From positions 34,775 to 98,774 of the IMG/VR virus record IMGVR_UViG_3300037883_000122: 64,000 nt of DNA. One strand, written 5' to 3'. This stretch comes from a virus. The notes under the pieces are model-generated. The model searched no databases and was not told the DNA's origin. It saw only the letters and a program-made list of their open reading frames with translations. Both the position numbers and the translations under genes were made by a program. Within the stretch, counting starts at the first letter, position 1; each line of letters begins with the position of its first letter. Below are positions 4,301 to 62,177 of this stretch, piece by piece.

Positions 4301-4337
4301 GACATAGTGGGGAGGCCTGAGCCTCCCCTTATGCCCT
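4301..4337. terminator. Bidirectional hairpin with TATG boxes on both sides
   Basis: An 8-bp perfect stem GGGGAGGC (4309-4316) / GCCTCCCC (4321-4328) has loop CTGA. TATG lies at 4330-4333 on the + side and CATA at 4303-4306, giving TATG for leftward transcripts. It sits at the convergent junction of the genes ending at 4291 and 4342. On the + side there is no U-tract; on the - side a TACTTTTT run follows. Confidence 0.75.
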
Positions 4338-6973: not shown

Positions 6974-7040
6974 TCGTTGACACAGTGCGTGACAATGTGT
7001 CGGAAATCGATTAGAATAAAACTAAGCATAAAATGAAGCA
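6974..7040 (+). promoter_or_regulatory. Possible sigma70-like promoter and small inverted repeat
   Basis: GTGACA (6989-6994) and TAGAAT (7012-7017) are separated by exactly 17 nt, each one mismatch from the bacterial -35 and -10 consensus. A GACAC/GTGTC inverted repeat overlaps the upstream half. It lies upstream of the membrane-protein gene at 7053. Phages of this type mainly use their own RNA polymerases, so this could be chance. Confidence 0.3.
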
Positions 7041-7052
7041 ATAGGGGTTATC

Positions 7053-7490
7053 ATGCTGGCATGGAAAACTGTTACCCTCTTGTGGCCGTTTCTAAAGGAG
7101 CTTTTTCTGGGGAAGAAGACGCTCCGGGAAGCCCTCAAGACAAACAAAGGGCGAGTCTTTGTGATCCTTGGGATCATTGGCTCGGTGATCTTGAACGTTT
7201 GGCTGGTCCCCAACATTGTCCGCATCTCCGCAGACTACGTAGACCTGAAGCACAGATACGATGACTTGAAGAAGTCTGACGATACTAAGCAGCCTGCGCC
7301 GCCAACGCCTCCGACCAAGGTGAAGACGGACATCGCCGCTGCCAAAGTTACTGACTCACTGCCCGCTGGCTATCGCTCTCCGGCAAGTGCGCCGGAAGTT
7401 CCCACGGCGACGGTGCAGCAGTGGTCCAGTTACGACGACACGCTGTCGCGGTTTAGTGCGATTGCTCAGCGTGAGCGGCATCAACGGTAG
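7053..7490 (+). CDS. Single-pass inner-membrane protein, possible i-spanin
   Basis: This 145-residue protein has one clear membrane segment at about residues 34-56 (VFVILGIIGSVILNVWLVP), after a basic, amphipathic N-terminus. A short helical stretch follows (YVDLKHRYDDLKKSDD), then a Pro/Ala-rich tail. The gene for a lipoprotein follows 10 nt downstream. A membrane-anchored protein paired with a lipoprotein is the arrangement of two-component spanins, which fuse inner and outer membranes at lysis. However, the coiled coil is short and the tail is proline-rich, so this is a suggestion only. Other membrane roles are possible. Confidence 0.6.
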   Translation: MLAWKTVTLLWPFLKELFLGKKTLREALKTNKGRVFVILGIIGSVILNVWLVPNIVRISADYVDLKHRYDDLKKSDDTKQPAPPTPPTKVKTDIAAAKVTDSLPAGYRSPASAPEVPTATVQQWSSYDDTLSRFSAIAQRERHQR

Positions 7491-7500
7491 GTAGAAGAAC

Positions 7501-7956
7501 ATGAGATTTCTCAAATACGCTGTAGTGCTGGCCATCGGCCTTACGGGGTGCAATAGCTTTAACACGTACGATCAGGCCGCTCAACACCAGGGGCAGGTGA
7601 AGAGCACTAAGGATGACAAGGGCTTCTGGAATAAGATCTTCGGCAGCGATGAGGCTGCCAGCGATCCGACCGTGGTCGAAACTGTCAACCCCAACCCCCT
7701 GGTCGCTACACGGGATGAGCGGGGGCAAACGCTGTGTCCGACGGCTAAGCTGGCAGCAGTCCCTGGGCTGCCGCCTTTGCCAGACGATCAGCTGAAGCAA
7801 CTCAGCCCGAAAGACAAGGATGCGATCATCGCACTGCTGACCAATCACATCGACGAGCTGCGTTCTTACGCCAGCAAAATCCGTGATCAGAAGAACGGTG
7901 AACGTGCCCGCTACATGGCTGATTGCCGCCGCTGGATCATGCAGCATCAGCAGTAA
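7501..7956 (+). CDS. Phage lipoprotein, possible o-spanin
   Basis: This 151-residue protein begins with a lipoprotein signal peptide: basic MRFLK, hydrophobic YAVVLAIG and lipobox LTGC with the modified Cys at position 17. The mature part is polar, with a helical C-terminal region containing ELRSYASKIRDQ and a pair of Cys residues overall. It is 10 nt after the membrane protein at 7053. It may be exported to the outer membrane as the partner of that protein (two-component spanin). It is longer than typical o-spanins, so an adsorption or exclusion lipoprotein is an alternative. Confidence 0.65.
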   Translation: MRFLKYAVVLAIGLTGCNSFNTYDQAAQHQGQVKSTKDDKGFWNKIFGSDEAASDPTVVETVNPNPLVATRDERGQTLCPTAKLAAVPGLPPLPDDQLKQLSPKDKDAIIALLTNHIDELRSYASKIRDQKNGERARYMADCRRWIMQHQQ

Positions 7957-7973
7957 AAAAATGCTTTTTTGAC

Positions 7974-8007
7974 GGGGTAGGGTCATGTTCTGCGACAGAC
8001 CCGCCCC
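7974..8007 (+). terminator. GC hairpin between lipoprotein and RNase H fusion
   Basis: GGGG (7974-7977) plus GGGTC (7980-7984) pair with GACCC (7998-8002) plus CCCC (8004-8007), with a small internal mismatch. CTTAAAC follows. There is neither a strong U-tract nor a TATG box. The stem ends 6 nt before ATG 8014, leaving no room for a normal ribosome site there. Confidence 0.45.
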
Positions 8008-8013
8008 TTAAAC

Positions 8014-10158
8014 ATGACGACTTCTACCATTCAAGATTGGCTTCAATCCAATCTATCGCTTTATGTCCATGGGGATTTACGCAAGCGTATTCCTTTGCCG
8101 GGTGTGTATGCGATTTATTTCCCTTTGACTGATGAAGTCTTCTTCGGGCAGACCAAGCACCTGTACCGAGGTCGTCTTAAACACCTACGTGCTTTGAAAC
8201 GGGGTGTAGCCGAAAACAAGGGTTTGCAACGAGCATTTAAGGAAGGTAAGCGAGCCTTTGATTTCTACTACATCAACCTCCCTCAGCAGGTCTCGAAGGA
8301 GGTAGCGCAGGACTACATTGGCCTGCACCACGATCAACCTTACCTACTGAATGAGGCGAGGGCCGAACGGACTCACAAAGTACATTCTACTGCGCTGGCG
8401 GATAGTCTGACGAGTCCGAACAAGTCTGATTCGGTAAGATTAGAAAAGAAAGGATTACAGCGTATGGCTAGTATCGTTACAGCACAACCGGAAGTTATTC
8501 CGGTGATCATCCCCGCGGTCTCAGACGAAGAAGCCCCCACGGCTAAAGTCATCAAACAGACACAGATGCTCACGGATGCGCCGTTGGGTGTCGTGTACCA
8601 CACGGATGGTGGTGCGCGTCCCAATCCGGGTCCTGGAGGCTGGGGCATCCACGGCTATCTGTACCGTGCCGTGAAACCGAAGAAGGGTTCGGGTAATCCG
8701 GACCATGTGTTGACCGTCGACGGGTATCACGCCAAGGCGGATTACAACAAGCAGAAGGAACTCGACTGGGGTCCGGAAGATTTCCAATACTGGCTCGACA
8801 ATCCGTTGGGTCGCAAGAAGTATCTGGAAGTCATGCCGGTCAACTACGTGGATGGTTACGGCTGGTTTGCCGAACCGGTCACGAACAACATCGCGGAACT
8901 GGTCGCTGCGACTGCAGCACTGGAACACGCGGCGCAGTTCGACGTAAAGGTGGTCCAGATTCGAGCGGACAGCCAATACGTCTGCAAGGGCTTGGCTGAG
9001 TATGTCCCGGCTTGGATTCGTAACAACTGGATCAAGGTCGATGGCTTTCCGGTCAAGAACAGCGAGTACTGGAAGAAGCTGGTAAGTGCTCGTGATGTGC
9101 TGGTGAATCGGGGCGTGGTAGTTCGTGTCGACTGGATCAAAGGTCACAATGACCATCTCGGCAACGAGTTGGCCGATCAGGCAGCAACGATCGGTGTGAT
9201 GAAGGCCCAGCAGTTGCTCTTTGGTAAGCCGTGGCAGTTCAATCCCGATGGTCCCGCAGTCGTGGCCTATTCGGATCTCACCACGGACGAAGCCGAGGGC
9301 TATTGGAAGTACGACACGGAGAAACATCCGTTCATTTCCATGCCGCGGATGTATTTCAACACCTGTGAGGAGTATTGTCTTCCGGGTGTGTACTATCTCG
9401 GCAATGGCAAGGAAGAAGAACATCCGGGTAAGCGAATCTCTGACGGTGCATTCGCTGTGATTAAACTCGCGGAACCGGACAGAGTGCTCGAACTGGTTCG
9501 CCGGTATCAGAGCAAACTGGCCGATAACGTTATGGCTCTCGCCCAAGCGCGTCTGGACTTTATCTATCGTCCGGACATCCACAAGAAGCTGATCGATCAT
9601 GGTCCGCTCGTGATGGTTCAAAACGACCCGTCGCGACTGGATACCTACGATCTACACAGCCTCGACAAGGACAAGCAGAAGGAGCCGATCACTCGTGAGT
9701 TGAGACCGCCGCACTTGGCCATGCGCGCGGTAGAGAACGTTGAGCTGCTCACACAGAAGCTCAATCAGTATCTGTCGAAGGACCCGGACGTCGTTGTCAC
9801 GGATCTCACTGACATACTTTATGAGAAGAGTCAAAAAGTCGTCAAGAAAGAGACGGTCGACATCTGCACGCTAAATCCGAAATACAACGTCGGGTTTGCG
9901 GCACTCGAAGTCAATGCCAATTATAAGACGGACGAGGGTATTTCGTCTGCGCCAGTGATCCTGACACTTGGCATTGACCTCATCGATCGGAACGCTCTGA
10001 AGCGGCTCGAGACGTCTCATCCGAAAGTCAGCCTTATCAGCTGGCTGGAGGCCCCGCACATTTTCCGTTACGCTTCGGTCATTGAGATCGACGGTTGTGT
10101 CGGTATCTGGGCGGGACTGTATTCCAACGTGCGAATTGTGACACCGCAATCCCGCTAA
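8014..10158 (+). CDS. GIY-YIG-like domain fused to ribonuclease HI
   Basis: This is a 714-residue multidomain protein. Residues about 28-120 look like a GIY-YIG nuclease domain: GVYAIYF, then VFFGQT in the YIG position, Arg and His downstream, and a Glu in SKEVAQDYI followed by Asn. Residues about 192-400 are RNase HI with all four acidic residues present: TDGGARPNPGPGG (D198), NNIAELVAA, RADSQYV and GNELADQA. The C-terminal 300 residues are unassigned. RNase H degrades RNA in RNA-DNA hybrids such as primers or R-loops. ATG 8014 has no ribosome site, whereas the in-frame ATG at 8464 has AAAGG at a 10-nt spacing, so a shorter RNase H product starting there is likely. Early codons end in A/T more often than later ones. 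Confidence 0.8.
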   Translation: MTTSTIQDWLQSNLSLYVHGDLRKRIPLPGVYAIYFPLTDEVFFGQTKHLYRGRLKHLRALKRGVAENKGLQRAFKEGKRAFDFYYINLPQQVSKEVAQDYIGLHHDQPYLLNEARAERTHKVHSTALADSLTSPNKSDSVRLEKKGLQRMASIVTAQPEVIPVIIPAVSDEEAPTAKVIKQTQMLTDAPLGVVYHTDGGARPNPGPGGWGIHGYLYRAVKPKKGSGNPDHVLTVDGYHAKADYNKQKELDWGPEDFQYWLDNPLGRKKYLEVMPVNYVDGYGWFAEPVTNNIAELVAATAALEHAAQFDVKVVQIRADSQYVCKGLAEYVPAWIRNNWIKVDGFPVKNSEYWKKLVSARDVLVNRGVVVRVDWIKGHNDHLGNELADQAATIGVMKAQQLLFGKPWQFNPDGPAVVAYSDLTTDEAEGYWKYDTEKHPFISMPRMYFNTCEEYCLPGVYYLGNGKEEEHPGKRISDGAFAVIKLAEPDRVLELVRRYQSKLADNVMALAQARLDFIYRPDIHKKLIDHGPLVMVQNDPSRLDTYDLHSLDKDKQKEPITRELRPPHLAMRAVENVELLTQKLNQYLSKDPDVVVTDLTDILYEKSQKVVKKETVDICTLNPKYNVGFAALEVNANYKTDEGISSAPVILTLGIDLIDRNALKRLETSHPKVSLISWLEAPHIFRYASVIEIDGCVGIWAGLYSNVRIVTPQSR
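8449..8466 (+). promoter_or_regulatory. Internal ribosome binding site and in-frame ATG in the RNase H fusion
   Basis: AAAGGA lies 9-10 nt before ATG 8464, which is in frame with the long reading frame (codon 151). Initiation here gives a 564-residue protein starting just before the RNase H domain. The site is better than the one at 8014. Confidence 0.5.
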
Positions 10159-10214
10159 CCTATGAGGGCTGCATCTTTTTACCGTCAAGTGTAGCTCTAT
10201 TGGAGTTCTGCCCT

Positions 10215-10628
10215 ATGCAACGGTTAACTGCACGTCTGAAGTCCGGCGTCGCAAGTCTCCTGGAATCGTCACTGCCTGGTCGTACCAAGCGACTGATCCT
10301 GTTCACGTCGCTCGCGGCGCGGGCCAAGGAGACTCAAGACCTGGACGTCACGACACTTCGCAAGCTCAACAGTCTTATGGATCTGGCGGGCTCGGAGGAT
10401 GCGATGAAGTGGCCAGCATCGCTTTCTCGCGCGATTTGGGACGGCAAGCGCTCGGTCGACGCCATTGAAATGCTTGGCAAGGGGGGTCCGCTCCCTGAAG
10501 CCACGATCAGAGATCTTGTCCAACAGATCAAAGCCTGCATTCCTCGCTGTTTGCGTTACGGCCGAGAAGGTGATCTGGATGCAGATCTCGAGAAGTTCGT
10601 GCATCACAAGTCGGAAGTGCTGGGTTAA
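10215..10628 (+). CDS. Small conserved protein of unknown function
   Basis: This 137-residue basic, helix-rich protein has no recognised motif. ATG 10215 was chosen because GGAG lies 9 nt upstream; an upstream in-frame start at 10095 would overlap the RNase H gene and lacks a ribosome site. It follows the RNase H fusion by 56 nt and is the last gene of the rightward unit, ending at a double-sided hairpin. A role in nucleic-acid metabolism is possible from context and basic charge only. Confidence 0.6.
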   Translation: MQRLTARLKSGVASLLESSLPGRTKRLILFTSLAARAKETQDLDVTTLRKLNSLMDLAGSEDAMKWPASLSRAIWDGKRSVDAIEMLGKGGPLPEATIRDLVQQIKACIPRCLRYGREGDLDADLEKFVHHKSEVLG

Positions 10629-10647
10629 TCCTGGCATCGCGAAGAAG

Positions 10648-10703
10648 GTCATAACCCACTAGCCCGCCCGAACGATTGGGAGAGCTAGTGGGTTTATGCC
10701 GTT
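10648..10703. terminator. Bidirectional hairpin with TATG boxes on both sides
   Basis: An 11-bp perfect stem AACCCACTAGC (10653-10663) / GCTAGTGGGTT (10684-10694) encloses a 20-nt loop. TATGCCGTT follows on the + side (from 10695), and CATA at 10650-10653 gives TATGACCTT leftward. It lies at the convergent junction of 10628 and 10702. Confidence 0.75.
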
Positions 10704-11526
10704 ACTTCAGGATCTCGGTGATCTTGTCGACACTGGCGTTCACTGCCGTAGCGTAGGCGAGTACACGGTAGTAGATGACGGAGAAGAACTCGAGCTCGCT
10801 GGCGATCTGGAACGCACCTTCGGCGAGTTCCTGGGCGACTTCGGGTGCGCTCGATTCCAGCTTGCCATCCTTGAGCAGGCTGATGACCTTGTCCATCAAC
10901 TGACCGGCTTCCTTGACCTTGTGGTTCAGGGCCGTACGGTCAACGGAGTTCATCTGCTTGGACAGTGCGTCGACTTCGCCGAAGACGATTTCCCAGTCCT
11001 TGTTGCGCGAGACGACGTCGCCGTACTTGCGCTTGGTCTCGTGGCTGCCAGGTTTGAAGAGCGCGCCCATTTCCTTCAGGATCTGGTCACGTTCCGTTTG
11101 CATGCCCTGGTACACCTGGACGCTGTTCTTCGTCTCGAAGCGCTGGAACTCATTGGTGATGAGCATGGCCAGATACGTGGTGTACGTATTCAGGAGGTCG
11201 CGCACCTTCAGCGCATGGTCAGCGGCTTGATGCAGCACGTTGCCGAGTACGACGAAGTCAGCGTCGAAGCCTTCGGGCACCACCACGGCGAGCGGGCTGA
11301 TGTCGACGAAGTTGTGTTTCTCGACAAGCTTGATGAAGTTGCGTTGATCGCGCGAGAGCGGGATCGGTTTGTCGTTGGCCGAGAAGCGCGCCACGAAGTT
11401 GCTGAAATGCGATTTGATGTCCGGCATGACCTTCTTGAGCATGCTGGTGACATCGAGAGTCTGGACGCTGAAAGTCTCCAGCGCCACGACGTCACGATGG
11501 TGACGCAGAGTTTGAAGCGAGTCCAT
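10702..11526 (-). CDS. Conserved phage protein, possibly internal virion protein
   Basis: This 274-residue protein is predominantly helical, with several Leu/Ala heptad-like stretches and Lys/Glu-rich segments, no membrane span and almost no Cys. ATG 11526 is preceded by AAGGACACC. It is a single-gene leftward unit between two hairpin- or promoter-type intergenic regions, divergent from the RecA-like gene. Its size and composition resemble small abundant internal or scaffold-type proteins of jumbo phages, but I recognise no family. Confidence 0.6.
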   Translation of the reverse strand: MDSLQTLRHHRDVVALETFSVQTLDVTSMLKKVMPDIKSHFSNFVARFSANDKPIPLSRDQRNFIKLVEKHNFVDISPLAVVVPEGFDADFVVLGNVLHQAADHALKVRDLLNTYTTYLAMLITNEFQRFETKNSVQVYQGMQTERDQILKEMGALFKPGSHETKRKYGDVVSRNKDWEIVFGEVDALSKQMNSVDRTALNHKVKEAGQLMDKVISLLKDGKLESSAPEVAQELAEGAFQIASELEFFSVIYYRVLAYATAVNASVDKITEILK

Positions 11527-11662
11527 AGGTGTCCTTCAGTGTGAAAGAGAACGTGTTTGCCATAACATGCGCGCACGACTTACGCGAGAGTAGTAAATTT
11601 CACCGTCAAACGCCATCATTTGTAAGGCTCTGTTTCCCGTCTCTCTAACAAAAGTCAACGCA
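11527..11662. promoter_or_regulatory. Divergent promoter region
   Basis: These 136 nt lie between the leftward 10702-11526 gene and the rightward RecA-like gene. The centre is AT-richer (GTAGTAAATTTCACC), but no perfect TATATTAC box is present. The start at 11663 has no strong ribosome site nearby. Confidence 0.3.
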
Positions 11663-13093
11663 ATGGAATTTCTCCAACCTAAAATTACTGCTGCGCCGCC
11701 GGTCAAGCTGATGATCAACATCGGGGCGTTGATGGACATCCCGACCGGGACGTATATCGAAGGCCGTCGGGGTGAGCACATCCTGAATGGCGGTCTGGCA
11801 ACGCTCACGGGGGTCGTGGGTATCGGTAACAACTTCAAGTCGACGGTGATGCACTACCAGATGCTCACGGCGATGTCACGCTTCGAACGGGGTTCGGCCA
11901 GCACGTACGACACCGAAGTCAACATTCAGGAATGGCACTTGGCGGAAATGATCCGTCGCGTCGAAGGCCTGCACGAAGAAGACGTGCTGCAAACCGGTCG
12001 CTGGATTATCACCGACAAGACGATGCACACCGGCGATGACTGGTACGCCAAGCAACGCGAGTTCCTGGAAGACAAAGCCAAGAACGCCGCGAAGTGGTCG
12101 GTCGATACGCCGTTCTGGAATCGCGATCGTTCGGGACCACTCAAGATGATCATCCCGACGTTCAACGAGATCGACTCCTTCACGGAATTCGAAACCTCGG
12201 ACGTGATGGACATGCAGGACAAGAACGATCTGGGCGAGTCGGGTGGTAACACCATCCACATGCGTCAAGGTCTGGCCAAGCTGCGCCTGCTGATGGAAGC
12301 ACCGCGCTTGAATGGCCAAGCGAACAACTACTCGCTGATGACGGCGCACATCGGCAAGGAATCGACGATGCAGAATGCGGGCCCAGCAGGCTCGGTTCCG
12401 ATCGTCAAGCTCAAGCACTTGAAGAACGGCGACAAGATCAAGGGCACCACCGACAAGTTCACCTTCATCACGCACAACTGCTGGCATGCGTACAACGCCA
12501 GTCCGTTGATCGCCGCAGACAAGAACGGTCCGGAATACCCGCGTGACTCGGACGACAAGATGAAGCTCGACACGGACTTGAACACGGTCCAGTTGCGCAA
12601 CCTGCGTTCGAAGTCGGGTCCCTCTGGCATGGCGATCACCCTGATCGTCTCGCAGACCGAAGGCGTGTTGCCGTCATTGACCGAATTCCATCACATCCGT
12701 GAACAGGACTACTACGGTCTGGTCGGCAGCAAGATCAACTACGCACTCGCTATCTACCCGGACGTCAAGCTGGGTCGGACCACGGTACGTTCGAAGATCG
12801 ACGAAGATCCGAAGCTGCGTCGTGCGTTGAACATCACATCGGAACTGTGCCAGATGTCGTACATGTGGCATCACCTCGACGACCTGATGTGCACGCCGGA
12901 AGAACTATACAACGACCTGAAGGCGAAGGGTTACGACTGGGACACGCTGCTCAATACGCGCGGCTGGTGGACCACGGATGAAAACCATCCGCTGCCGTTC
13001 CTCTCGACCATGGATCTCTTGCGCATGCGCAAGGGTCTGTACCATCCGTACTGGTACCCGGTCGCCGTAGATGCACTGAAGGCTGCTGCGTAA
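11663..13093 (+). CDS. RecA-like P-loop ATPase (UvsX-type candidate)
   Basis: This 476-residue protein has a RecA-superfamily P-loop at about residues 48-60 (GVVGIGNNFKST, a Walker A with Asn-Asn-Phe before the Lys). A strand LKMIIPTFNEID near 155 could carry the Walker B-type acidic residues, and MAITLIVSQTEG near 320 looks like a sensor strand. The domain sizes fit a RecA/DnaB-like ATPase with an added C-terminal region. phiKZ-type phages encode a RecA-like protein, so a strand-exchange or replication role is likely. It opens a dense operon: its stop overlaps the next start (TAATG). Confidence 0.6.
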   Translation: MEFLQPKITAAPPVKLMINIGALMDIPTGTYIEGRRGEHILNGGLATLTGVVGIGNNFKSTVMHYQMLTAMSRFERGSASTYDTEVNIQEWHLAEMIRRVEGLHEEDVLQTGRWIITDKTMHTGDDWYAKQREFLEDKAKNAAKWSVDTPFWNRDRSGPLKMIIPTFNEIDSFTEFETSDVMDMQDKNDLGESGGNTIHMRQGLAKLRLLMEAPRLNGQANNYSLMTAHIGKESTMQNAGPAGSVPIVKLKHLKNGDKIKGTTDKFTFITHNCWHAYNASPLIAADKNGPEYPRDSDDKMKLDTDLNTVQLRNLRSKSGPSGMAITLIVSQTEGVLPSLTEFHHIREQDYYGLVGSKINYALAIYPDVKLGRTTVRSKIDEDPKLRRALNITSELCQMSYMWHHLDDLMCTPEELYNDLKAKGYDWDTLLNTRGWWTTDENHPLPFLSTMDLLRMRKGLYHPYWYPVAVDALKAAA

Positions 13094-13260
13094 TGGCACG
13101 CCTGACGCGCTGGATCAAAGAAGCGCTTTGCAAGCACTCGAAACGCACGATGGTGAAGACCGATCTGGTTCTCGCTCAGCACGTGTGTGACGAGTGCGGC
13201 AAGCGGATCGTCGAACCTTACAATGGCTTCAAAGCCCTGGGTCAGTATGAGCGAAAATAA
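13093..13260 (+). CDS. Small zinc-binding protein
   Basis: This 55-residue protein starts at the ATG that overlaps the stop of the RecA-like gene. It has a CxH pair (C13, H15) and a CDEC knuckle (C32, C35), a spacing compatible with one structural zinc ion, and a basic N-terminal helix. Such proteins often bind nucleic acids or act as adaptors. Its 3' end overlaps the next gene by 14 nt in another frame. Reality is supported by start-stop coupling and G/C-ending codons. Confidence 0.65.
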   Translation: MARLTRWIKEALCKHSKRTMVKTDLVLAQHVCDECGKRIVEPYNGFKALGQYERK

Positions 13261-15181: not shown

Positions 15182-15283
15182 ATGTCCGAAGTTCATAAAC
15201 GCGTGATGGCACAGATCCGTGCATGGAAACTCATGTACGACTCCCAGCCCTGTCGCGTCATCGTTACACCGAAACAGCAATGA
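15182..15283 (+). CDS. 33-residue basic peptide
   Basis: ATG 15182 follows TAGGAGC, a good ribosome site that shares the previous stop codon. The peptide is basic (MSEVHKRVMAQIRAWKLMYD) and ends with an ATGA overlap onto the next gene. It could be a real micro-protein or a leader that couples translation of the GIY-YIG-like gene. Confidence 0.45.
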   Translation: MSEVHKRVMAQIRAWKLMYDSQPCRVIVTPKQQ

Positions 15284-15663
15284 ACATCAATGTCGCGTTT
15301 GTCGACAAATGGATCACGCTCGAACTGGCCGCAGTGCTCTCAGCAGAGCCTGCGCCAGTTCAGCCTCTTGATCCACCCAGGAAGGAAATGGGTTTTTATG
15401 CCCTGCATTTTCCGGAACATGATTACGTGTACTTTGGCGAGGCTGGTGACTTGGCTTTTGCTAAAGCGAATCACCTGTACAAGCTCAGATGCAATAAACA
15501 TGATCAGCCGGAACTACAACAGGCTTATAACGACGATCCGCAGGGCAAGGTCCTCTTCTTCACGATTCCTACGCAAACTCGTGAAACAGGACGGCGGATT
15601 CTCGAGCAATTTCTGAAAGCCTACGAAGGGCAAGAGAAGCTTTTGAATGGGGGTATGAAGTGA
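15280..15663 (+). CDS. Stand-alone GIY-YIG-like domain protein
   Basis: This 127-residue protein has GFYALHF and YVYFGEAGDL in the GIY and YIG positions, a downstream charged helix, and RETGRRILEQFLKAY with the conserved Glu before a final Asn-Gly-Gly. It closely resembles the N-terminal domain of the RNase H fusion at 8014 (GVYAIYF/VFFGQT), so the two are probably paralogues. The usual catalytic Arg after YIG is not obvious, so nuclease activity may be lost. ATG 15280 overlaps the previous stop (ATGA), and the next gene overlaps its stop (GTGA). Confidence 0.55.
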   Translation: MNINVAFVDKWITLELAAVLSAEPAPVQPLDPPRKEMGFYALHFPEHDYVYFGEAGDLAFAKANHLYKLRCNKHDQPELQQAYNDDPQGKVLFFTIPTQTRETGRRILEQFLKAYEGQEKLLNGGMK

Positions 15664-21027: not shown

Positions 21028-21064
21028 CATAGACGCCCAGGGTCACCCCTGGGCGCTATGCCGT
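21028..21064. terminator. Bidirectional hairpin with TATG boxes on both sides
   Basis: A 9-bp perfect stem CGCCCAGGG (21034-21042) / CCCTGGGCG (21047-21055) has loop TCAC. TATGCCGTC follows at 21057, and leftward CATA (21028-21031) gives TATGACCTT. It lies at the convergent junction of 21012 and 21067. Confidence 0.8.
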
Positions 21065-36475: not shown

Positions 36476-37963
36476 ATGTTGACGATCGAAGCACTCCAAA
36501 GCGCACTGCCGCTGGCCGAGCGTCTGGACCAGCGCGGCTTCGTCGCACTGCCCCGTCCGGATACCCCGCTCGAAATGCTGTGCGCTCGTACGCGTAGCGG
36601 CGAAGAAGTCGTGTCGGCCACCGATGGCGTGACTATCAAGGTCGACGTGCAGCAAATGGCACTGTCCGCAGCCGCCAAGGACCCCGTGTTCGGTGAGAGC
36701 CAGCACGACCAGGCACTGGACGACATCGCTGGGGTTTGCATTCCGGCGGTGCAAGGCCACATCAAGCACGCACGTGAAGTCGTGGCCCCTGCGGTCGACG
36801 AACTCGTCACTCGCACCACGGAACTGCTCTCGCACCAGACCACGGCCAAGCTGCTCGGCATGGAAGTCACGGTCGAGGAAGTCCCGGCGCCGCTGACCAA
36901 TTCGTCGTTCGACACGATGGTCCGCAAGTACGAAGAGACGCCGCTCAATAGCCCGGCTCTCACGTTCGACCTGCCGGATCAAACCGGCGCGGAAATCGTC
37001 GAACTGATGAAGACTGGCTCGGGTTCGCTCGATAGCGAAATCGAACAGTTTGCCTCGACCTTGGGTGATGGTTGCCTGATGGGTATCTGGCGTGATCTGT
37101 TCCAGCAATCGCAAGCCGACATCGTCGACACGCGCGCCAAGCGCTTCATCGACTATCTGCAAGATTCGGAATGCGGTCTGGACAACGCGCTGGTGATCTT
37201 CCTGCTCGCGCGCAAGCTCGTGGACAACCCGCTCGACGGGATCACGATGAGCCTGCAGTCGTACGAAACGCTGATGGCCGACTTCCGTGACCAGGCAGCA
37301 GCACATCTGTGCCGCGAACTGGATGCGATCGACCAGGCTGAGCGTAACGGCGCGCTGGTGGTCAAGTTCACGAACAACAACATCGTCGTGAACGATGCGC
37401 TGTATCGCAAGTGGCTGGAAGACGGCGGCGATAACGACGTGCTGTTCGGCAACCTGCTGCAAAGCAATCCGTACGTGATGCTCGCGGACATCGAAGAGAA
37501 CGCTCAGCAGCTCAAGCGTGCCTGGGCGAATCATTCGGCGCTGGTCGGTACGGTCGAGCAGAACAAGCGCTTTGCCCGGACCAAGGAAGCCCTCGCGTCG
37601 GTGTTCCGTACGCAGATGCGCGACATGGCTGACGATGAGCGCGCCAACATCGACGTCGAGAAAGCGATCAACCGTTTCGACGTGTTGCTCGACGACGTGG
37701 TGGAGTCGGAACTGGACTGCCTGTACACGATCGCGTTGCGTCTGGTGTGCCGTTCACGTTTCATTCGCACCGAAGCCGAACGTATCCTCGGCGGCATCGA
37801 CCGGATCAAGAAGAAGAATCCGGAACTCGACATCCGTGAAGCAGCTGAAATCTCGGTGATCGAGTACGTGGCCTGGTGGGTGGCCACGCAGGTGTACGTC
37901 GTCGACGCGAAGACCATGAAAATGAAGGAGCAGCAAAGCGCTCCTGTAGTGGTCGCTGGCTAA
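36476..37963 (+). CDS. Conserved phiKZ-like protein (gp177 position)
   Basis: This 495-residue, mostly helical acidic protein has no membrane segment. There are repeated long helices, including EQFASTLGDGCLMGIWRDLF and DERANIDVEKAINRFDVLLD. It starts 1 nt after the 65-residue gene. By order, beta subunit - this gene - 37978 - protease parallels phiKZ gp178 to gp175, so a head or DNA-packaging structural role is plausible. Nothing in the sequence proves it. Confidence 0.6.
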   Translation: MLTIEALQSALPLAERLDQRGFVALPRPDTPLEMLCARTRSGEEVVSATDGVTIKVDVQQMALSAAAKDPVFGESQHDQALDDIAGVCIPAVQGHIKHAREVVAPAVDELVTRTTELLSHQTTAKLLGMEVTVEEVPAPLTNSSFDTMVRKYEETPLNSPALTFDLPDQTGAEIVELMKTGSGSLDSEIEQFASTLGDGCLMGIWRDLFQQSQADIVDTRAKRFIDYLQDSECGLDNALVIFLLARKLVDNPLDGITMSLQSYETLMADFRDQAAAHLCRELDAIDQAERNGALVVKFTNNNIVVNDALYRKWLEDGGDNDVLFGNLLQSNPYVMLADIEENAQQLKRAWANHSALVGTVEQNKRFARTKEALASVFRTQMRDMADDERANIDVEKAINRFDVLLDDVVESELDCLYTIALRLVCRSRFIRTEAERILGGIDRIKKKNPELDIREAAEISVIEYVAWWVATQVYVVDAKTMKMKEQQSAPVVVAG

Positions 37964-43603: not shown

Positions 43604-43650
43604 GGCATAAGACGGGGACCTTCGGGTCCCCGTCTATGACGTTCTTTCTT
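43604..43650. terminator. Bidirectional UUCG hairpin with TATG boxes on both sides
   Basis: A 10-bp perfect stem GACGGGGACC (43611-43620) / GGTCCCCGTC (43625-43634) has a TTCG loop. TATGACGTTC plus a T-rich run follows, and leftward CATA (43606-43609) gives TATGCCGTC. It lies at the convergent junction of 43590 and 43669. It is one of the clearest examples. Confidence 0.85.
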
Positions 43651-52346: not shown

Positions 52347-52386
52347 GTCATAGAGCCGCAGGGTTTCCCCTGCGGCTCCTATGCCG
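52347..52386. terminator. Bidirectional hairpin with TATG boxes on both sides
   Basis: An 11-bp perfect stem GAGCCGCAGGG (52353-52363) / CCCTGCGGCTC (52368-52378) has loop TTTC. TATGCCGTT begins at 52380, and leftward CATA (52349-52352) gives TATGACGCC. It lies at the convergent junction of 52337 and 52389. Confidence 0.85.
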
Positions 52387-62138: not shown

Positions 62139-62177
62139 GGCATAAGAGGCGAGCCTCGGGCTCGCCTCTATGACGTT
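62139..62177. terminator. Bidirectional hairpin with TATG boxes on both sides
   Basis: A stem of at least 10 bp AGAGGCGAGC (62145-62154) / GCTCGCCTCT (62160-62169) extends one further C-G pair to a TCG loop. TATGACGTTAG starts at 62169, and leftward CATA (62141-62144) gives TATGCCCTT. It lies at the convergent junction of 62129 and 62176. Confidence 0.8.

Follow-up and report, generated by a model that had tools for sequence, protein, structure and literature searches.

A GIY-YIG-type domain fused in frame to the RNase H of FLC9-like jumbo phages, with a conserved internal start probably used for the plain enzyme

The DNA analyzed here (the window, 64,000 nucleotides) is part of a 98.8-kb virus record. 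Its nearest annotated relative is the Burkholderia glumae jumbo phage FLC9, with 88.6% DNA identity over positions 7000-13100. The genomes of FLC9 and its near relatives contain genes for a nuclear shell protein of the phiKZ type (E-values 1e-28 to 1e-33), an RNA polymerase beta-type subunit and tubulin-like proteins, so that these phages form a nucleus-forming jumbo phage group; a tubulin match is also present in the window's own virus record, at the record end. A single open reading frame at 8014-10158 (plus strand, as are the other parts of the gene described below; 714 codons) encodes a GIY-YIG-type domain that is joined through 37 linker residues to a jumbo-phage RNase H. The frame contains an in-frame ATG at 8464, 450 nt 3' of the ATG at 8014. 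Both the frame and its internal ATG had been proposed in a first-pass annotation of the sequence, and both proved real (714 aa).

The fusion was found in frame and free of stops in four lineages: the window, FLC9 (702 aa), and two IMG/VR groups, one made up of L008, L009 and L012 (695-696 aa) and the other represented by L015 (692 aa). It is known from these four lineages only, of which FLC9 is an isolate and three are metagenomic (L014 and L015 are two samples). No GIY-YIG domain was detected upstream of RNase H in the distant outgroup loci inspected (e.g. L059, L037 and FLC6), in which the RNase H genes start close to the equivalent of ATG 8464 (the L059 RNase H is 48% identical). In the RNase H tree, the fused forms all fall on one side of a 100/100 branch. 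No earlier report of a GIY-YIG/RNase H fusion was found in the literature (open-licence papers only).

The RNase H portion (8464-10158, 564 aa) consists of an RNase HI fold and a C-terminal domain conserved in jumbo phages. It matched Pfam RNase_H (2.7e-24) and PHROG 3265, ribonuclease (3.8e-110), and a Foldseek comparison with E. coli RNase HI gave an E-value of 8e-10. The catalytic residues Asp198, Glu295, Asp319 and Asp388 are invariant, together with His378; membership in PHROG 3265, the RNase HI fold and the catalytic acidic residues, the marks of a jumbo-phage RNase H, were thus all found. The N-terminal tail of the enzyme directly after ATG 8464 (8467-8570) is highly variable and, unlike the region upstream, has several in-frame indels, including a 17-residue stretch that is present in the window and missing from FLC9.

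The internal start is preceded by a Shine-Dalgarno sequence, AAAGGA, at 8449-8454. Its calculated strength (-5.4 kcal/mol) is close to the median of FLC9 genes (-5.8 kcal/mol), and the motif, its spacing and ATG 8464 are identical in all four lineages, in agreement with the good ribosome site reported earlier for this position. The encoded residues around the site vary (e.g. GLQRM to GSEVM); the synonymous pattern at the motif is suggestive and below significance. These observations support ATG 8464 as the ancestral RNase H start, retained and conserved inside the fusion. Because the RNase H start signal has been kept inside the fused gene, this one gene probably makes both the fusion and the plain RNase H.

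The upstream start (ATG, 8014-8016) is conserved in all lineages and is the only start conserved in its region. As the first-pass annotation had stated, it has no ribosome site: the energy of its duplex with the anti-Shine-Dalgarno sequence was +0.4 kcal/mol, and only 1 to 2 of 41 FLC9 genes were equally weak. The annotated TTG start of FLC9_gp60, equivalent to 8077, was rejected as the conserved start, as the window reads TTA there; the deposited start of gp60 (L003:4073) looks wrong, since it uses this non-conserved TTG instead of the ATG at L003:4010. The start of FLC9_gp61 (L003:3522) looks wrong as well: a GTG is annotated, though there is an upstream ATG behind AGAAGAAC that is common to FLC9 and the window.

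The leader contains a conserved RNA hairpin (7968-8012, plus strand) whose core stem, 7974-8007, ends 6 nt before ATG 8014, just where the annotation had placed it. In its 60-nt context the minimum free energy was -22.2 kcal/mol (z -3.3) in the window and -20.6 to -22.6 kcal/mol (z -2.9 to -4.9) in the relatives, so that the structure is stable in all four lineages, and its stability exceeds that of the same stretch before every one of the 41 annotated FLC9 genes. The outer stem pair changes on both sides between lineages (GC/AU/UA), and covariation is slight overall (one pair), too little to stand alone. No such hairpin precedes the FLC6 RNase H, and an Rfam scan of 7900-8600 returned nothing at E<=5. 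Other identities for the hairpin were rejected: an ordinary intrinsic terminator (there is no U-tract after the stem, and the terminator scan did not list it), a repeated element (its pattern has a single occurrence in the window), and a conserved switch in which the hairpin loop pairs with the start codon instead (by eye, not kept in L015).

Other sequences with structural potential were observed in these and other jumbo phages. The stretch CTGACGAGTCCGAAC at 8406-8420 of the window is similar to the core of a hammerhead ribozyme; it lacks GAAA and has no Rfam match, and the likeness was taken as chance. Strong hairpins of unrelated sequence (e.g. CGCTAGTATT...AATACTAGCG) lie just 5' of RNase H in the other jumbo phages L042 and L043, at about 2350-2460. 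Strong hairpins without a U-tract and with TATG directly after the stem, many of them on both strands where two genes converge, were seen at 4308-4329, 21033-21056, 43609-43634, 52352-52379 and 62144-62168 of the window and at L113:20805-20846 and 37264-37312. Of all tetramers in the window, TATG is the one that most often has a stem of at least 8 pairs before it (18 of 145, 12.4%; mean 0.6%; TTTT 5.9%). The hairpin-TATG arrangement has the appearance of a phage-specific terminator, and the late-promoter motif of phiKZ is likewise TATG.

Residues 1-113 have evolved under purifying selection in every comparison (dN/dS about 0.11, range 0.11-0.13), and the first 30 codons are conserved too, with low pN. 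Because of this conservation ATG 8014 must be used, and because no stop intervenes before RNase H, its product is the fusion. It has been pointed out that fusions of mobile GIY-YIG domains need not be functional (PMC1564403); here the low dN/dS argues for function of the fused domain. The linker (residues 114-150, 8353-8463) shows near-neutral amino-acid change (dN/dS 0.5-0.9), and yet it contains stops in the other frames, none in the coding frame and no indels in any lineage. In simulations run without selection, all linker copies stayed open in 1-6% of runs (P 0.01-0.06).

The open frame, and above all a linker that would be unlikely to stay open without selection, would also fit a gene that makes the full fusion alone, with ATG 8464 as a plain internal methionine and AAAGGA as a remnant of the site that RNase H had ancestrally. 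We consider this unlikely: the strength of the motif is that of an ordinary gene, and motif, spacing and ATG have stayed constant in all lineages while nearby residues changed. Moreover, with a poor, hairpin-blocked upstream start as the sole source, the phage would be starved of a conserved enzyme.

The core of the upstream domain, residues 30-113 (8101-8352), is a GIY-YIG homologue, a conclusion that is firm at the level of sequence profiles. A single-sequence Pfam search gave a GIY-YIG match under the cut-off (E 0.14). A profile built on six fused copies retrieved canonical GIY-YIG genes from the same and other jumbo phages, some of which exceed the Pfam cut-off, and hhalign comparison of the fused domain with seven canonical jumbo-phage GIY-YIG proteins gave a probability of 99 (E 6.6e-18, 92 columns). 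When the profile was run against all PDB sequences, the sole matches were entries of the I-TevI catalytic domain (1ln0 and 1mk0, E 0.05 and 0.12). The AlphaFold (AF2) model of the domain alone, from a shallow alignment, had a pLDDT of 43; the strand and helix order in the full-length model, b-b-a-a-b-a, fits the GIY-YIG fold, at a pLDDT below 50. The proposal of a GIY-YIG-type domain joined to RNase H was thus supported, by the profile-profile match and by a frame kept in four lineages.

The active site of the fused domain is eroded, a feature that had escaped the first-pass annotation. In the canonical set the Tyr of GIY, the Tyr of YIG, Arg, His, Glu and Asn are all invariant. The fused copies retain Tyr32, His57 (Tyr in L015) and Asn113. 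The YIG Tyr is replaced by Phe (Phe43) in all of them, and the catalytic Arg column holds Gly or Thr (in the window Gly53, flanked on both sides by Arg). The Glu column holds Ala in the window (Ala98), FLC9 and L015, and Glu in L008, L009 and L012. The fused domain therefore lacks the full set of six residues of an active GIY-YIG nuclease. Nor was a DNA-binding tail of the NUMOD/HTH type, as expected of a homing endonuclease, detected by Pfam in residues 1-150; the free-standing GIY-YIG relatives gave weak tail matches. On these grounds the fused domain is a GIY-YIG homologue that does not qualify as a standard active homing nuclease. The window type is probably non-cutting, and cutting may survive in the L008 group, where Glu remains. 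It has been shown that some GIY-YIG enzymes tolerate odd residues, such as the Lys at the position of the YIG Tyr in R.Hpy188I (PMC2630997).

A second, free-standing and diverged GIY-YIG-like protein, also missed in the first pass, is encoded at 15283-15663 (plus strand, 126 aa; the orthologue of FLC9_gp51). The hhalign probability was 98.4 against canonical GIY-YIG proteins and 95.7 against the fused domain. It is a single domain with a conserved place downstream of UvsX, and equivalents were found in FLC9 (gp51), G001, G002 and G003. The Arg column is lost, Glu and Asn are retained, and the N-terminal helix is like that of the fused domain, of which this protein is possibly a paralogue.

The fused domain differs from the rest of the gene in its third-position composition, which looks foreign. 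Third-position GC is 0.50 in 8014-8463 vs 0.66 downstream, and the more A/T-ended codon choice noted for the first 450 nt was thus upheld. In FLC9 the same segment has a value of 0.51, while 80 other 150-codon segments have a mean of 0.718 (sd 0.061; 1 of 80 is as low). Values for the cassette (0.50-0.58) lie between those of the free-standing canonical GIY-YIG genes in these phages (0.32-0.45) and of ordinary genes (0.72). The accompanying suggestion that the domain was added recently was wrong for the fusion, which is older than the split of lineages whose cassettes differ by a dS of about 1.1 to 1.4; the value of about 1.1 between the window and L015 shows that the fusion is not recent. The more recent event, by these comparisons, is the passing of the cassette from one phage to another.

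Evidence for exchange comes from distances. Measured from the window, RNase H is nearer to L015 than to L012 and the cassette shows the opposite, at both synonymous and amino-acid-changing sites (2000/2000 bootstraps, 0/2000 against); the RNase H tree joins L015 to the window and FLC9 at 94/95. L008, L009 and L012 differ from one another at synonymous sites by 0.02-0.05 in the cassette and by 0.20-0.29 in RNase H. Because its relatedness pattern differs from that of RNase H, the cassette has been transferred as one piece from phage to phage. Identity drops at both edges, at the end of the upstream gene and directly after ATG 8464, so the exchanged unit, a putative mobile cassette, spans approximately 7952 to 8466 (plus strand) and includes the hairpin, the GIY-YIG domain, the linker and the RNase H ribosome site. 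Exceptional identity of the cassette was true within L008, L009 and L012 (top 1-2% of windows) and was rejected for the window vs FLC9 (17% as high); since the latter identity is unexceptional, transfer is argued from the incongruent distances. The incongruence shows exchange, not homing. No relative was found in bacterial genomes. No close relative lacking the cassette was found, so the insertion site was deduced from distant relatives.

A transfer signal across the whole cassette, the Glu, His and Asn kept in L008, L009 and L012, and the canonical homing-type GIY-YIG genes elsewhere in the same phages could all be explained if the cassette were still an active homing endonuclease, incidentally translated into RNase H and spreading by cutting cassette-free relatives. 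This appears less likely still than production of the fusion alone, given the loss of the YIG Tyr and the catalytic Arg in all fused copies, the Ala in place of Glu in the window, FLC9 and L015, the missing tail that the free-standing genes possess, and the failure to find a close cassette-free relative. It is very improbable that plain RNase H alone is made and that what lies upstream is only the untranslated remains of a homing-endonuclease gene, as the absent ribosome site at 8014, the strong hairpin and the eroded active site might suggest, because residues 1-113 keep a dN/dS of 0.11 in all comparisons, with no stops or frameshifts in four lineages.

We regard as the probable explanation that a domesticated and probably non-cutting homing-nuclease domain was added to RNase H, and that the old start was kept for the plain enzyme. 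A free-standing GIY-YIG cassette of the homing-endonuclease type would have entered the gap before RNase H in the ancestor of the FLC9-like phages; having no stop of its own, it reads into RNase H. The RNase H ribosome site within the cassette would anchor it, as deletion would damage an important gene. The domain would now be domesticated, purifying selection keeping it while the active site has eroded, and the head is most likely a nucleic-acid binder, not a cutter, that would place RNase H on phage DNA or R-loops. The hairpin and the missing ribosome site would hold the fusion scarce or timed, and plain RNase H from 8464 would be the main product. The cassette presumably still travels among related phages, by a homing-like process or by ordinary recombination.

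More tentatively, it is possible that the non-cutting head serves regulated targeting or localization of RNase H, with tethered and untethered forms in a ratio set by the leader hairpin. If so, the two forms might split their work between the phage nucleus and the cytoplasm, or between replication intermediates. Under the domestication reading, the locus would show a selfish nuclease cassette caught midway in its conversion to part of a host enzyme. The cassette is fused and under selection, and its active site is decaying; phages still exchange it, and the RNase H start signal that it carries would anchor it. It offers a testable case of how homing genes become indispensable and of how a single gene could yield two forms of an enzyme in nucleus-building phages.

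PhiKZ-type jumbo phages possess this RNase H too, C-terminal domain included (PHROG 3265; e.g. FLC6_gp56), in the same neighborhood with UvsX nearby; outside the FLC9 clade it has no N-terminal GIY-YIG domain in the loci inspected. In T4, segG (beside gene 32), segA and segE are likewise nuclease cassettes adjoining the 5' side of a replication or recombination gene and carrying its expression signals, and promoters of the downstream genes inside them favor their retention (PMC2988022); retention through a carried RNase H start signal would parallel this arrangement. Each free-standing GIY-YIG gene of T4 is a separate unit that ends in its own stop and encodes a DNA-binding tail and an intact active site (PMC2988022), in contrast to the fused frame, missing tail and eroded active site described here. 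Hairpins control translation of the T4 endonucleases I-TevI, SegB and MobE (PMC2988022). In seg43(25) of Aeromonas phage 25, as here, a very stable hairpin lies immediately 5' of the endonuclease start and has no ribosome site sequestered within it; in seg43(25) a ribosome site follows the hairpin (PMC2988022), whereas none does here. Odn (Gp88) of phage ICP1 demonstrates that chimeras can arise by recruitment of homing-type GIY-YIG domains: it too joins such a domain (T5orf172) to another domain, and domestication has been proposed (PMC8263062). The nuclease of Odn is active, and a RepA_N domain directs it to its target (PMC8263062); in the present fusion an enzyme takes the place of that partner, and the GIY-YIG domain is probably inactive.
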